Source: a virus | IMG/VR virus record: IMGVR_UViG_3300030114_000526 | Span: 1 to 42,859 of that record | Strand: one strand, 5' to 3' | DNA length: 42,859 nucleotides | In this document: one piece after another, positions 10,201 to 16,200 of the stretch | Layout of the letters: each line of letters starts with the position of its first letter | How positions within the stretch are numbered: position 1 is the stretch's first letter | The notes under the pieces: generated by a model | The model's input: only the letters and a program-made list of their open reading frames with translations | What the model was told of the DNA's origin: nothing | Databases searched by the model: none | Made by a program: the position numbers and the translations under genes

Positions 10201-13200
10201 TTGACATCATGGCATAGCGATATTTAGCTTGTAAAGGAATATATTAAAATTTTATTTCAACCTGTTAGAATTCATTTCTAAACTTAAAGATTTTATTTTA
10301 ATTAAGCCTTCTTTGGTTAAATGTTTTTTTAATTTAACCATTAACATAGCCTCTTTAAAACAATAATAATCTTCTTGTTTTAGATTTAAAAGCGGGTATT
10401 TATCAAAATGTGGAATTATTTTATCTAATATAGAAGCAGTATCTTGTACTATAAAATCGCATCTAGGTGTAGCTAAATTAGATCTTAGAGCCACTGTCCC
10501 CCGCCACAAACCCGGACACTCACTGTGGGTTTAAATTGTCAGGTAATGTAACAATTGGTTTGGGAAACGGTATAACATCAGGATAATACTTTAAAACCTT
10601 TTTAGATACTCCCGTGTTTATAGAAGCATAATAAGAAAGAATAGTTAAAAACCCTGCCTTATTTAAATGATCTTTATTTAAGATAATTTTGATGACTGAA
10701 GATCATAATAAAAAATCTAACCCCTTTTTACTAATAAGGGTATATTTTGTAAAATGTGGTATAATAACATCATTTAAGTAATTCACGTTGGTTACTCTAT
10801 ACACAGATATTTTTCTATCTGACCTATTATATACAGCACCTACACCAAAAAAAGACTGGATTTTGTATAAAATCTCTGCGTCTTTCTCATGTAGATTTAT
10901 TTCAAATGAAGTTCTGACTTTCCATTTTAAAGGGCTGGTAATCTCTATTATAATAGAAAAACAACCCTCAGCGTCGACAAACCCTGTTACCCAATTAGGA
11001 TCGAGTTTGTCTACAGGGTGGTTTATAGAGAAATTTTGTTTTAATACTTTATTTACAATTCTTAAATTCATATCATGTGATGTGAATTTAAGAAGTCCAC
11101 TAAATACTGGACTATCTCTTAGTCACCCTCGTGTATTAAGTATACGGGTGACTCTCCTTGTGTAGTCTCTGAGGTTACCAAATAAACACACATGTATCGT
11201 ATTTAATAATATAGAAATATGTGTATTATTTTTGGCTACCTGCTGATTGTTCATTGTAACATCTTTAAAATTATTACTGTAAATATAGGTATTACTAGTA
11301 TTTAAAGTCTCCGAAGCTCCCAGCATATAATGGAGATAGATGCAAATATTATTTAACATAGGCCTAATTTTGACCATACCAAGATAACCGAAAACGCTCT
11401 TGTTCGAGCTTGCGGACACCACTGTACTGATAATACCGAAACCTGGTATTATTAATATATAAACCTCTGGGTGACCGAAGAATCCAATTCCTTACGGTAT
11501 AATTTTTTTCACCTTATAATTATACAACCTGGTAACTATCACCAGCCCTCTTGGTCAATAAAGGAGGAATCCGACTGTACATTAAGCAGCGTTCCAGCCA
11601 CCCACCGGTGAACCAGTCTGTAGCGATTTCTTTGGAAACCGACGGTCTTGTCCTAGGGGATTTTGACCGTATGGACAATCTCATAAATATGGAGATTATC
11701 CCACCAGTGTTGCTATGGTATTCTATTGTTTTCTCCTAAGAATTACACAATAAATTACAACCACAACTAGGGTTGTGGTATACCCATGGGTATTCACTAC
11801 TGAAGGTCTTACTTTTTTTTACATCTGCCTTAAGTAGTTTCATAGCTTACGTCTAAACCAACCCCTTTTTTCCTGTATATTATATAGCTTTGTTAATTTG
11901 CTTGGCCAGATTTACTAATTCTGATCGTGTAGTATCATTTAAATGATCTCCTTTAACTAACCTAGAATGAATTATTTTTCACTTTAAATAACTCCCTTTT
12001 TTTAGTTATAAGGCTATATTCATCAAAATAAGGAAATAAACCAAGGCAAATTTTTACACCATTTACCCTAAGCTCTCATACACCAGGAGCAGAATGAGGT
12101 ACTACACAACCTTTAGTTAAAAATCCATCCTTGCTTCCGAAAGGCCTACCTGCAGAGGGAAAACCAGATTCATAATATATTCTAAAACATGTTTATTAGC
12201 CTCTCATTTTTGAGTCAAGATATATCTAAATCTATATGCAGAACTATTAGATAGTAGAGAACAAGTAAAGCAACCTTCACCGTCTGTTATACCTGAGATT
12301 CAACCATCATTTAAGGAAGGAGTAACATAAGTATCTAAAGGAAATATGGTAGTAAGATTTTTTTTTAAAAGCTTTTCATTAAAAGATGAAAGAAAAGTTA
12401 AGAATCTCGCTTTTCTGGTCGGAAATACTATATTCCCGTTAAACAGTAAACAAGGGAGTCCCTGGTGCGAAGCACCCAGTAATAGAAACAGCAACAGGGG
12501 GAAACTGAATAAATAGCCTGACAAATACCCGGGCCTTTACCCGGGGCACTCATCTACCCTCCCCTTCTTATATTTCCCCCTGCATACTTCGTCAGCAAAG
12601 AAATTAGGCACAATGTCAAGCTTAAATATCCTTGTACTTTAAATTTGACATAAACTTAAACTAACACGAATAAATATCTATCTTTATACGGTTTATTCGA
12701 TTTTAAGTAATTTCTGATTGTAGTATGATTAGTCTCCAACGCTAATGCTGCTTTACGTAAAGATTCATAGACTACTGTTTCATTTGTGTTAAGATCTGTT
12801 ACAGATAACTTAGATCCTGGAACGGGTTGTTTAATTCTTGTTGATTGGTATTTTTTCATTTTATCTATAGTCTCTTGCGGTAATTTAAGACCTAATTTAG
12901 CCGCAGATATCTTAGATATAGCTTCTAATGTCAACTTTTTACCTTGGTGGGCAAGACTAAGTCTTTTTCTAGTTATCTCAGAAAAAACTCTACCCTTGGC
13001 TATTTCAGACATTAGAGCCTTAGTTTCTTTGGAATGTGTAGAACCTAACTTAAGTTTAGCCATTTTAATTTTAACTTCTAAAGGTAACCTACGACCTAAA
13101 GGTGAACCTGCTACGGTTAATATATTATAAGTAGGCTTAAATAAATCGAAATAATACTGTTCTCTTTGTATAGTTTCATTTTTACCACAGTATTCGAGGA

Positions 13201-16200
13201 TTTCTAAAGTAAAATTTTCATGTTCATGCTTTAAGATAGCTCGGCATATTAAACTATTATTACTATTATTTACTAAGCTTTTACCATAGTATTGTAGAAG
13301 TCTAGGGCCAAGATTTATACTACTTCCAATATAAGTCTTTCCAGTTACTTTGTTAGTTCAACGATAGACCCCGGCTTTCAATTTATTATCCTGAAGAATA
13401 GACTGTTTGGCTTTAGCGGGATCTGTATAAGTAACCGCAGCACTTAATGACGTAGAATAATTACGATTAGTTATATAAGAAGAACTACAGTTAGCCTTAT
13501 AAGAAAAATAATTAGGGTTAGTAATATAAGAAAAATGATCAAAAAATCTCCGTGTGTTTTTAGTGTCTTGAATAACAAACCTATGTGTATTTTGTTTTAT
13601 AGATTGTTTAATTACTTTTCCAAAACCAAGATTATCCTTAATATAATTTAAACTTTGTATATCTGTAGTAGATTGAGTAACCACAAACGATAAGTCTCCT
13701 CTTTTAGCTAAAATGAAACTACCTTCTCCTTCTGAAAATCCGATAAACCACTCCAAAAATTTGTTTGTAGGTTGTTTTAAACCAGGGTAGTTCTCGCTAA
13801 ATTTAGAATAAAAAGCTGTAAAATCGAAAGTTTTGCCTCCTCGGCTCACTGTTGAGATAAGTGGTGCTAAACAAGAGCATATATAATTTTTTTCTTTTAA
13901 GAAAAGATGTTGATATAATATAGGGTCACCACCTCCTGCAGCTTCAAAGAATGATGTATTAAAGTTTCTATCCGTTAAAACCATTGTAATTGCACCGGCT
14001 AATACTGGTAATGATAATAATAACAATACTGCTGTAACAACTACGGCTCATCCAAATAAAGCCAATTTGTGTAGCCTGATACCGGGACTTCGCATATTTA
14101 GAACAGTAGTAATGACGCACTTAACGGTTGTTGTTTTTTTTTCTTCGAAAACAGTAACAATTAAGGTGGACTATATCTTCAGCCTATCTATTAAATGTTG
14201 TTTGCCTGTTATAAGAAAGTATTACTTTGCAAACAAGCAGCCCAACTAGCTCCTGCTTTACGAGCCAGCCTGCGACTAGCTATTTTACTATCCTTTCCCC
14301 CTAAAAGGGACGAGGATGAGCGTGCAGCTTCGCAGCCAAGGACGGGTCCTACGAACAACAAACTATATAGATACGGTGTCTAACGTGTAGTCTCTGAGGA
14401 TCCTACTTAGAAGGTCTCTCCTCTCTTTTTTGCAAAAAAAAAACCAAAAGGGGAGAGACACTATCTGTTGGTTTCCTGCTGATTGGGCACTATTTACACG
14501 ATTTACTTTATAATTATGTATATATATTAATGCAGTTCCAGCATATAGTTAGAAATTTATATATAAACCCCATTGTTGTTACTATTCATCTTAGGCATAA
14601 TTATGGTTTGTTATCCACGAATTTACAAATATATCCGTGGTAAGCTATGTTAGTATTTAAGTATTTAACAAGTGTTTTTTGGCTGGCTGGTAGATTTTTA
14701 CTCTTAATATAGTTTATACATTTCCCTATGCTTTCACATAAGATTTCCTCTTTAGTATGGATATCTATTAATAGCACAGCTTTAGTTAAACTATCCAGAG
14801 GTTTATTTTTATTAAACTTAACTCTATCTTTTTGTAACATTAAGGCTATATCTGGTAAAGACATATTTATAGCCTCGGCTGTTTTTACTTTTTCTCTTAA
14901 AAATAAGTATTTACCTAGGTAGTAAGTACCCTTCTCAAGGTGTTTAGTAAATGTGAAGTGACTAATATTAAGTTTAGTTATAAAATCTCTTTGTTGTAAA
15001 GTAAAGTATAGACAATTGGACCTTTCCTGCCTTCGGAAGAGGCCTCTTTTACCACCCTAGTCTTCAGAAACCGTTTCCTGAGAATTAGATACCTTTACAT
15101 CTTTATTGTAAAGACTTAACTTTAACTCCTTTATTTGGTCTAAGCCTTCGCTTGTTAAATGTGCCTTAGATTCCACAAGTCTTAGAATTTTTGACCATAC
15201 TATGTAATTAGGTAATTTATTTCCAGCCAATTGAAACTTATCAAAATGAGGTAAGATATAATTTACTAAATCTGAAGTACCTGAAACATGGTAACGTGCT
15301 ATTGAACGAGCTGGGTATGCATTAACATTACCAACGCCACCGAAAAATTCTTTAAATTTATATAATAAAGAAACTTCCCGGATGTGTAGTTCTACATTAA
15401 ATATTAATGTAACCCGTTTCTCGTTAAATATTTGTACATAAAATGAAGAATCACCCTCAGAAAACCCACTAACTCAATAAGGATCTAAAGCGAATTTTGA
15501 TGCCTCAAAGACAGGTCTAACTAAGGGCTTAACGCTAGGGAATAGCGCTTTAATTTTTACAGGTAAACCTCAATTAAGTACAGATTTTAATGAAAGTATT
15601 TCATTAAATCCGCTATCAGTAAGATGTTGTTTATTTCTCATCATTTCTATACATTGGGCTCATAGTTGGAAATCGAGAGATTTTGCACTTCTTAGAGGAT
15701 AATTCTTAAAATGAGGTACAACAATATTTACAAGATCACTTAGTTTAGTTATAGTATAATGCACTACATTAGCCTCTGCATTATATCTAAAAGAACCTGC
15801 ACCTTTAAAATATCGTTGAACAAGAACTAGTAAAGCGGAATCCCTAGAATTCATCCTAACCTGGAGAGAAGCTTGCACGATTCAACTATCTTTTAACTTA
15901 GACCTTCGTACAACTGAAATAATAAAGGAACCCTCCGCGTCAAGAAGTCCAGAGATAAAATTCGGATCGAGGTTTTCGGTAGGTTCACCCATGTTTGGCT
16001 GTTTATCTGACTTTATCCCACTTGCAGAATGAAACAGGGCGAGAAGTCGAAGGTTTTCCTTACCTAATCTATTATTACTTAGGTGGAAGGGGCATGTGGT
16101 GTTTAAAGATAGGTTGCTTTTAAAAATTTTCATTTTTAAATAAAATATTGTATATTATTTTTTTCTAGAAGTCACATTGGAAAAAGCAGGAAGTTGCCCC

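Follow-up and report, generated by a model that had tools for sequence, protein, structure and literature searches.

A GIY-YIG homing gene nested in frame within a LAGLIDADG homing gene of a mitochondrial cox1 intron

What becomes of two homing endonuclease genes when one comes to lie inside the other, and how might the newcomer be expressed there? The question is raised by a cox1 intron in IMG/VR virus record IMGVR_UViG_3300030114_000526, analysed over positions 1-42859 (hereafter the window, meaning this whole stretch of 42,859 nt). A single open frame at 12656-14170 (-), 504 amino acids long under genetic code 4, runs from a cox1 exon through the N-terminal part of a LAGLIDADG enzyme and a linker into a GIY-YIG endonuclease with NUMOD3 and NUMOD1 domains. 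Pfam places COX1 at residues 18-90 (59 bits), LAGLIDADG_1 at residues 143-215 (30.7 bits against a cut-off of 23.1; profile positions 2-84 of 102) and GIY-YIG (PF01541) at residues 266-349 (40.8 bits), the last over profile positions 2-78 of 78, so that the catalytic domain is complete; NUMOD3 in three stretches and NUMOD1 at residues 457-489 are likewise above cut-off. These matches bear out a first-pass annotation of the window, which had read a LAGLIDADG N part, a linker and a complete GIY-YIG/NUMOD3 enzyme in one frame, and they add NUMOD1. The same annotation had seen the LAGLIDADG C part about 200 nt later, frameshifted, and this too holds, as homology resumes at ~12449, ~206 nt beyond the stop codon, and continues to 11883 as three pieces in two other frames, meaning two frameshifts in the window sequence. 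Over 12120-12536 the C part is barely above the LAGLIDADG_1 cut-off (23.3 vs 23.1). This host gene does not have two complete LAGLIDADG repeats in one frame: the insert splits it and its C part is frameshifted.

The order of events is given by unbroken relatives. Scanning IMG/VR with a LAGLIDADG alignment retrieved two loci, L027 and L028, in which the LAGLIDADG frame at the same cox1 site is uninterrupted (L027:7362-8528 and L028:7380-8537, Pfam having been run on the L027 frame only); scans of genome contigs yielded no relative. Because both loci carry the gene whole, the GIY-YIG gene arrived later, in an intron already occupied by its LAGLIDADG gene, as the first-pass annotation had supposed when it spoke of an invasion and proposed alignment with uninterrupted homologues as a check. 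Relative to L027 and L028, ~5 codons are absent from the window between codons -9 and -3, counted from the Asn of the LxNG motif, with borders accurate to about one codon at this divergence. The insert spans ~1.1 kb (12450-13555), and only a 206-nt tail lies outside the open frame. The group I core downstream, including its P7 strands, is conserved in the window, L027 and L028, so that the host intron can probably still splice.

The two LAGLIDADG parts have not fared alike. Amino-acid change in the window is greater in the C part than in the N part, identity being 58.6% to L027 and 54.4% to L028 in the N part and 43% and 42%, respectively, in the C part. Rough estimates of nonsynonymous divergence (dN) against L027 are 0.33 for the N part and 0.51, 0.51 and 0.64 for the three C-terminal pieces (C1, C2 and C3); those against L028 are 0.33, 0.52, 0.56 and 0.53, and those between L027 and L028 are 0.18, 0.19, 0.18 and 0.29, about equal over most pieces. 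Together with the two frameshifts, the higher change in the C part fits a LAGLIDADG function that has been lost and an N part that has been kept open by its place upstream of GIY-YIG, in line with the earlier claim that the host enzyme was killed.

As a whole, the explanation that we regard as likely is that an intronless GIY-YIG gene inserted into the LAGLIDADG gene of this cox1 intron, destroyed it and continues its frame. The anatomy, the order of events, the lack of a detectable core of its own and an equivalent insertion site in another LAGLIDADG gene come from the comparisons themselves. That the chimera is by now a dead remnant, unexpressed or inactive, is a statement about its present state that overlaps with this history; the LAGLIDADG part is already broken, but GIY-YIG, NUMOD3 and NUMOD1 all exceed their Pfam cut-offs in the same open 504-codon frame as the exon, and we consider such a state unlikely.

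Could the GIY-YIG gene instead sit in a group I intron of its own, a nested intron or twintron, whose splicing restores the LAGLIDADG frame? Twintrons are frequent in fungal mitochondria, and the enzyme of one of them, Chaetomium thermophilum mS1247, is named I-CthI. There, as in the window, a homing gene is interrupted by another element, but the interrupting element is a group II intron and splicing restores the enzyme (PMC8393795; this and the other papers cited are represented by the portions available to us). An insert at Annulohypoxylon stygium nad5-i3, considered below, has also been termed a parasitic intron (PMC6140425). In the window, Rfam detected no second group I core, but it misses the host intron's own core as well and is too insensitive here to exclude one, so that we dropped its negatives as evidence. 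A search of 11480-13960 for P7 pairs (GACT..AGTC spaced by 20-160 nt) returned two, the host core at 11618/11576 and a pair at 12872/12773 in NUMOD3 coding sequence. The latter we reject as chance, since it lies within a NUMOD3 repeat, whose E-T codons yield GACT; the whole minus strand of the window holds 34 P7-like pairs. Considered as a moved partial intron module, the tail (12450-12655) contains no P7 pair, although a fragment without P7 could escape this search, and blastn against the fetched loci matched it to the window alone. The fold of 12440-12660 is somewhat better than that of shuffles (z -2.28).

The size of a related insert is more telling. At L039:95-4179 one LAGLIDADG gene, whole at L028:3125-4012, is split by three inserted homing genes, with borders set by nucleotide alignment to L028 and ends good to a few nt. 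The first insert (1,304 nt, replacing 3 nt) is a LAGLIDADG gene, the middle one (867 nt, replacing 12 nt) a GIY-YIG gene and the third (1,009 nt, replacing 3 nt) another GIY-YIG gene. In the middle insert only 67 nt precede the GIY-YIG open frame and 2 nt follow its stop, and these 69 nt are too little for a ribozyme, so this insert has no intron core of its own. In the window, moreover, with ~5 host codons gone and the C part frameshifted, removal of the insert alone would not restore the gene. With no second catalytic core found inside the first intron by the P7 search, Rfam being uninformative, neither a core nor a hidden intron has come to light between the LAGLIDADG parts, in agreement with the first-pass reading, and we hold a twintron to be very unlikely.

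From the cox1 exon to the end of the GIY-YIG domain there is no methionine codon, the next Met being residue 370. Expression as an exon fusion is for this reason the simplest reading, and the single frame without an intervening methionine lends support to the earlier suggestion that GIY-YIG may have taken over the exon-fusion expression of its host.

An enzyme made in this way might then have to be cut free, and the leader offers a candidate site, RNYST. We give about an even chance that the GIY-YIG enzyme of the chimera is released there. The pattern R-x-[YFLMI]-[SA]-[ST], similar to the R-3 type cleavage motif seen in imported mitochondrial proteins, occurs in 23 of 115 leaders before homing-endonuclease domains of these contigs, where 1,000 shuffles gave a mean of 2.2 and a maximum of 8, and in 5 of 112 stretches inside domains; these leader counts are not independent, given partial relatedness among the leaders and overlap between some contigs, and it was in this window that the motif first drew attention (11 vs 2.0 expected). 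Around the 29 sites of the [RK] form, a set to which the site of the chimera was added by hand, acidic residues make up 2.6% of the 25 residues before the site, where leaders as a whole have 7.7% and the stretch immediately following the site 13.8%, and 17 of the 29 preceding stretches have none at all, compared with 19.6% of random 25-mers. Basic residues, whose enrichment would be expected of a presequence, are not enriched before the sites (12.1% vs 11.9%). Proteolytic maturation of exon-fused enzymes is mentioned in PMC7487136, the available portion of which names no motif, and a paper found on the processing peptidase together with intron-encoded homing endonucleases brings in the peptidase solely as a fungicide target. 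If the leader motif is a real processing site, it would explain the release of exon-fused mitochondrial endonucleases. As a separate observation, the pattern [RK]-x-[YF]-S-[ST] occurs at window positions 2808, 7434, 8610, 13465, 18884, 24634, 29886 and 31185 (-), in or leading to homing-endonuclease frames, that at 18884 in a leader-like frame only.

The first-pass annotation had imagined hybrid proteins carrying a half-site LAGLIDADG domain, and a functional hybrid in which the LAGLIDADG N part directs the GIY-YIG nuclease by binding a half site is the least probable alternative of all: the N part retains both the LAGLIDADG motif and an open frame and has diverged less than the C part, but this supposed half is an incomplete repeat lacking its last part (profile position 84 of 102), the stretch joining it to GIY-YIG contains a motif resembling a cleavage site, and no N part was found at the L027 GIY-YIG locus described below, so that a working half-site domain is not to be expected in the chimera.

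For the insertion history that we favour, we infer expression, proteolysis, cleavage target and mobility as follows. A GIY-YIG gene moving without an intron would have entered the LAGLIDADG gene just before LxNG with the removal of ~5 codons, destroying the LAGLIDADG enzyme and leaving its 3' part to decay. The GIY-YIG enzyme would be translated from RNA still containing the host intron, as an extension of Cox1, and then probably be released by cutting between Y and S of RNYST. Once free, it would act on uninterrupted LAGLIDADG alleles and copy itself into them, while the host intron would go on splicing through its own conserved core.

Several points weigh against this explanation. The GIY-YIG domain is only a weak sequence match to the I-TevI catalytic domain (E 0.18), and non-ATG starts could allow GIY-YIG to be made on its own. 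Synonymous divergence (dS) is high (0.65-2.62), which makes the dN comparisons rough, and homopolymer errors in the C part or chimeric assembly may be involved. The N part has changed beyond the L027-L028 level yet is undecayed, which may mean a recent event or some use for the N part. Finally, GIY-YIG is out of frame with the LAGLIDADG part in both L027 and L039; the in-frame fusion is not fixed.

These last two loci raise the matter of a shared insertion site. The middle L039 insert and a GIY-YIG gene at L027:4114-4911 lie within a LAGLIDADG gene that belongs to a cox1 intron other than the host intron described above. In both, the coding sequence picks up again at V-L-L-N-G, and the part before the L039 insert breaks off at codon -9, like its counterpart in the window; at the L027 locus no N part of that LAGLIDADG gene was found and only the right border is comparable. 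The protein alignment of the two LAGLIDADG host genes is gapless across the LxNG region. Of the distinct LxNG sites in 171 loci plus the window, 13 are uninterrupted and 3 carry GIY-YIG (window, L027 and L039), counting segments with a LAGLIDADG N part directly before or a GIY-YIG match <=350 nt upstream, after duplicates from overlapping loci had been taken out of 45 rows by hand.

The GIY-YIG protein of the window is 46% identical to that of L027 and 44% to that of L039. In a 63-row tree the only group uniting the three is an open one of 11 rows (support 87/87), and in a 43-row tree their clade is unresolved (approximately unbiased test, p 0.419); sisterhood of the window gene with those of L027 and L039 is thus neither demonstrated nor rejected by these sequences, and, as the trees do not settle it, the shared site may reflect common descent, targeting or coincidence. 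By a rough estimate, two inserts in a 250-codon gene would share borders within a codon by chance in ~1% of pairs, a figure that is only suggestive because six places of GIY-YIG next to LAGLIDADG were read (the window, L027, L039 twice, L009 and L011:5148, with L011:6398 duplicating that of L009). There are 10 distinct places with LAGLIDADG sequence no more than 350 nt downstream of GIY-YIG, of which those in L010, L031 (two) and L075 fall outside the set read.

Other positions are used as well. The GIY-YIG gene of L009 reads as lying in the second repeat and the third L039 insert as lying near the C end, and L011:3963-5822 is an open frame of 620 amino acids with two LAGLIDADG repeats (by blast) followed in frame by GIY-YIG, so that the nesting of the two gene types is recurrent. 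The first-pass annotation would have given way had the two domains normally co-occurred; in these contigs they do not usually form one gene, and to that extent it stands, but L011 supplies a second in-frame case. GIY-YIG genes in L104 and L105 were set aside as nested cases, no LAGLIDADG being seen around them by eye, as was L014:7992, which did not look like an interior insert. The common LxNG site is suggestive of targeting and does not prove it. A broader idea, that such GIY-YIG genes are at home in other homing genes and target the conserved codons at LxNG and immediately ahead of it, so that one enzyme might enter many LAGLIDADG paralogues, we offer tentatively and think rather doubtful. 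Hyperparasites of this kind would have two hosts here, in the window and in L027/L039, with A. stygium nad5-i3 perhaps a third.

Nested homing genes, even in-frame ones, are already in print, and the earlier impression that LAGLIDADG/GIY-YIG hybrids are undescribed has to be given up. In Leptographium sp. WIN(M)1376 cox1-212, a LAGLIDADG gene sits in frame inside a GIY-YIG gene that is fused to the exon, an arrangement interpreted as a form of core creep (PMC10448965, PMC12308204). As in the window, the nested gene is in frame with the other homing gene and the upstream cox1 exon; unlike the window, it is LAGLIDADG that has entered GIY-YIG, within its N-terminal region, bringing a partial group IB intron module with it. 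At A. stygium nad5-i3 a 1,500-bp GIY-YIG element lies in a LAGLIDADG_2 coding region with the loss of 13 bp, against the 12 nt lost in L039, but it is presented there as a parasitic intron, and the available text says nothing of in-frame fusion or of where in the LAGLIDADG protein it lies (PMC6140425). Hypomyces aurantius cox2-i1 and the biorfic introns of Podospora resemble the window in that a homing gene without a recognisable intron of its own has entered an occupied intron, but in H. aurantius it is a LAGLIDADG gene that splits a GIY-YIG gene (PMC4964425). Two biorfic introns are known from Fusarium circinatum (PMC3847072).

The window falls in with these biorfic introns and mobile open reading frames, having a second homing gene without its own intron and one-gene relatives at the same site (L027, L028), and it is equally an in-frame nested homing gene, the invader sharing a frame with the resident homing gene and the upstream exon. 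It adds the opposite in-frame order, with no intron piece detected, together with relatives in which the host gene is unbroken and an insertion site that two host genes have in common. In the open papers we did not find GIY-YIG at one codon interval just before LxNG in two LAGLIDADG genes with ~5 codons missing, and no paper found in the open literature, by queries that did not use the words LxNG or RxYS, names the LxNG insertion site or the leader motif; the accessible portions of PMC5626475, PMC8767329 and PMC7424523 contain nothing on the subject, and the short text of PMC2447202 yielded no match.

The features discussed are collected in Table 1. Although filed as a virus record, the window is mitochondrial in content and most likely fungal: cox1 is present in pieces on the minus strand (7 Pfam matches), alongside 12 tRNA matches, a partial large rRNA, group I introns and many LAGLIDADG and GIY-YIG frames that are open when TGA is read as Trp (code 4). 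Matches to cox1 were also seen in 3 of 9 further records searched. The converse nesting occurs in a cox1 intron at window 14604-17540, where a GIY-YIG gene (16236-17540) is followed by a LAGLIDADG gene (15057-16154) and a second GIY-YIG C end (14604-15056). This second C end is 39% identical to the first over 85 columns and 61% identical to L028:5772-6956 over 64 columns, and it looks as if a LAGLIDADG invader had carried a replacement GIY-YIG C end.

Table 1. Positions in the window of the nested homing genes and the surrounding cox1 intron
Feature	Position	Strand	Evidence
cox1 exon upstream of host intron	13901..14119	-	COX1 Pfam match; 95.9% identical to L027 exon, 88.9% to L028 exon
LAGLIDADG host gene, first part, to codon -9 before Asn of LxNG	13556..13774	-	LAGLIDADG_1, 30.7 bits; codon alignment
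Insert of ~1.1 kb (linker, GIY-YIG gene and tail), replacing ~5 codons	12450..13555	-	Alignment to uninterrupted L027 and L028
RNYST, presequence-like candidate cleavage site, ~30 residues before GIY-YIG domain	13451..13465	-	Motif search; leader statistics
GIY-YIG catalytic domain	13124..13375	-	PF01541, 40.8 bits, whole profile
NUMOD3 repeats, NUMOD1 (~12704-12802) and stop codon (12656-12658)	12656..13123	-	Pfam
Tail with hairpins, without group I P7 pair	12450..12655	-	Folding, P7 search, blastn
LAGLIDADG host gene resumes at LLFNGN; start of second repeat	12174..12449	-	LAGLIDADG_1; 43% identical to L027
LAGLIDADG C part past first frameshift (PHSAPGVWELRVNG..)	11998..12099	-	53% identical to L027
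LAGLIDADG C part past second frameshift (GSYLKWKIIHSRL..DHLNDTT..)	11883..11996	-	47% identical to L028
Host group I intron core, P7 at 11618/11576	11540..11720	-	P7 pair; conserved vs L027 and L028; extent by eye
Next cox1 exon (FFGHPEVYI..)	11372..11485	-	COX1 Pfam, 31.4 bits, below family cut-off of 34.8

With uninterrupted relatives on hand for comparison, the window shows one homing gene that has taken another as its place to land and, probably, as the vehicle of its expression. If the shared LxNG site does reflect targeting, homing genes would have specialised parasites of their own, and the conserved motifs of their enzymes would serve as addresses within selfish genes.

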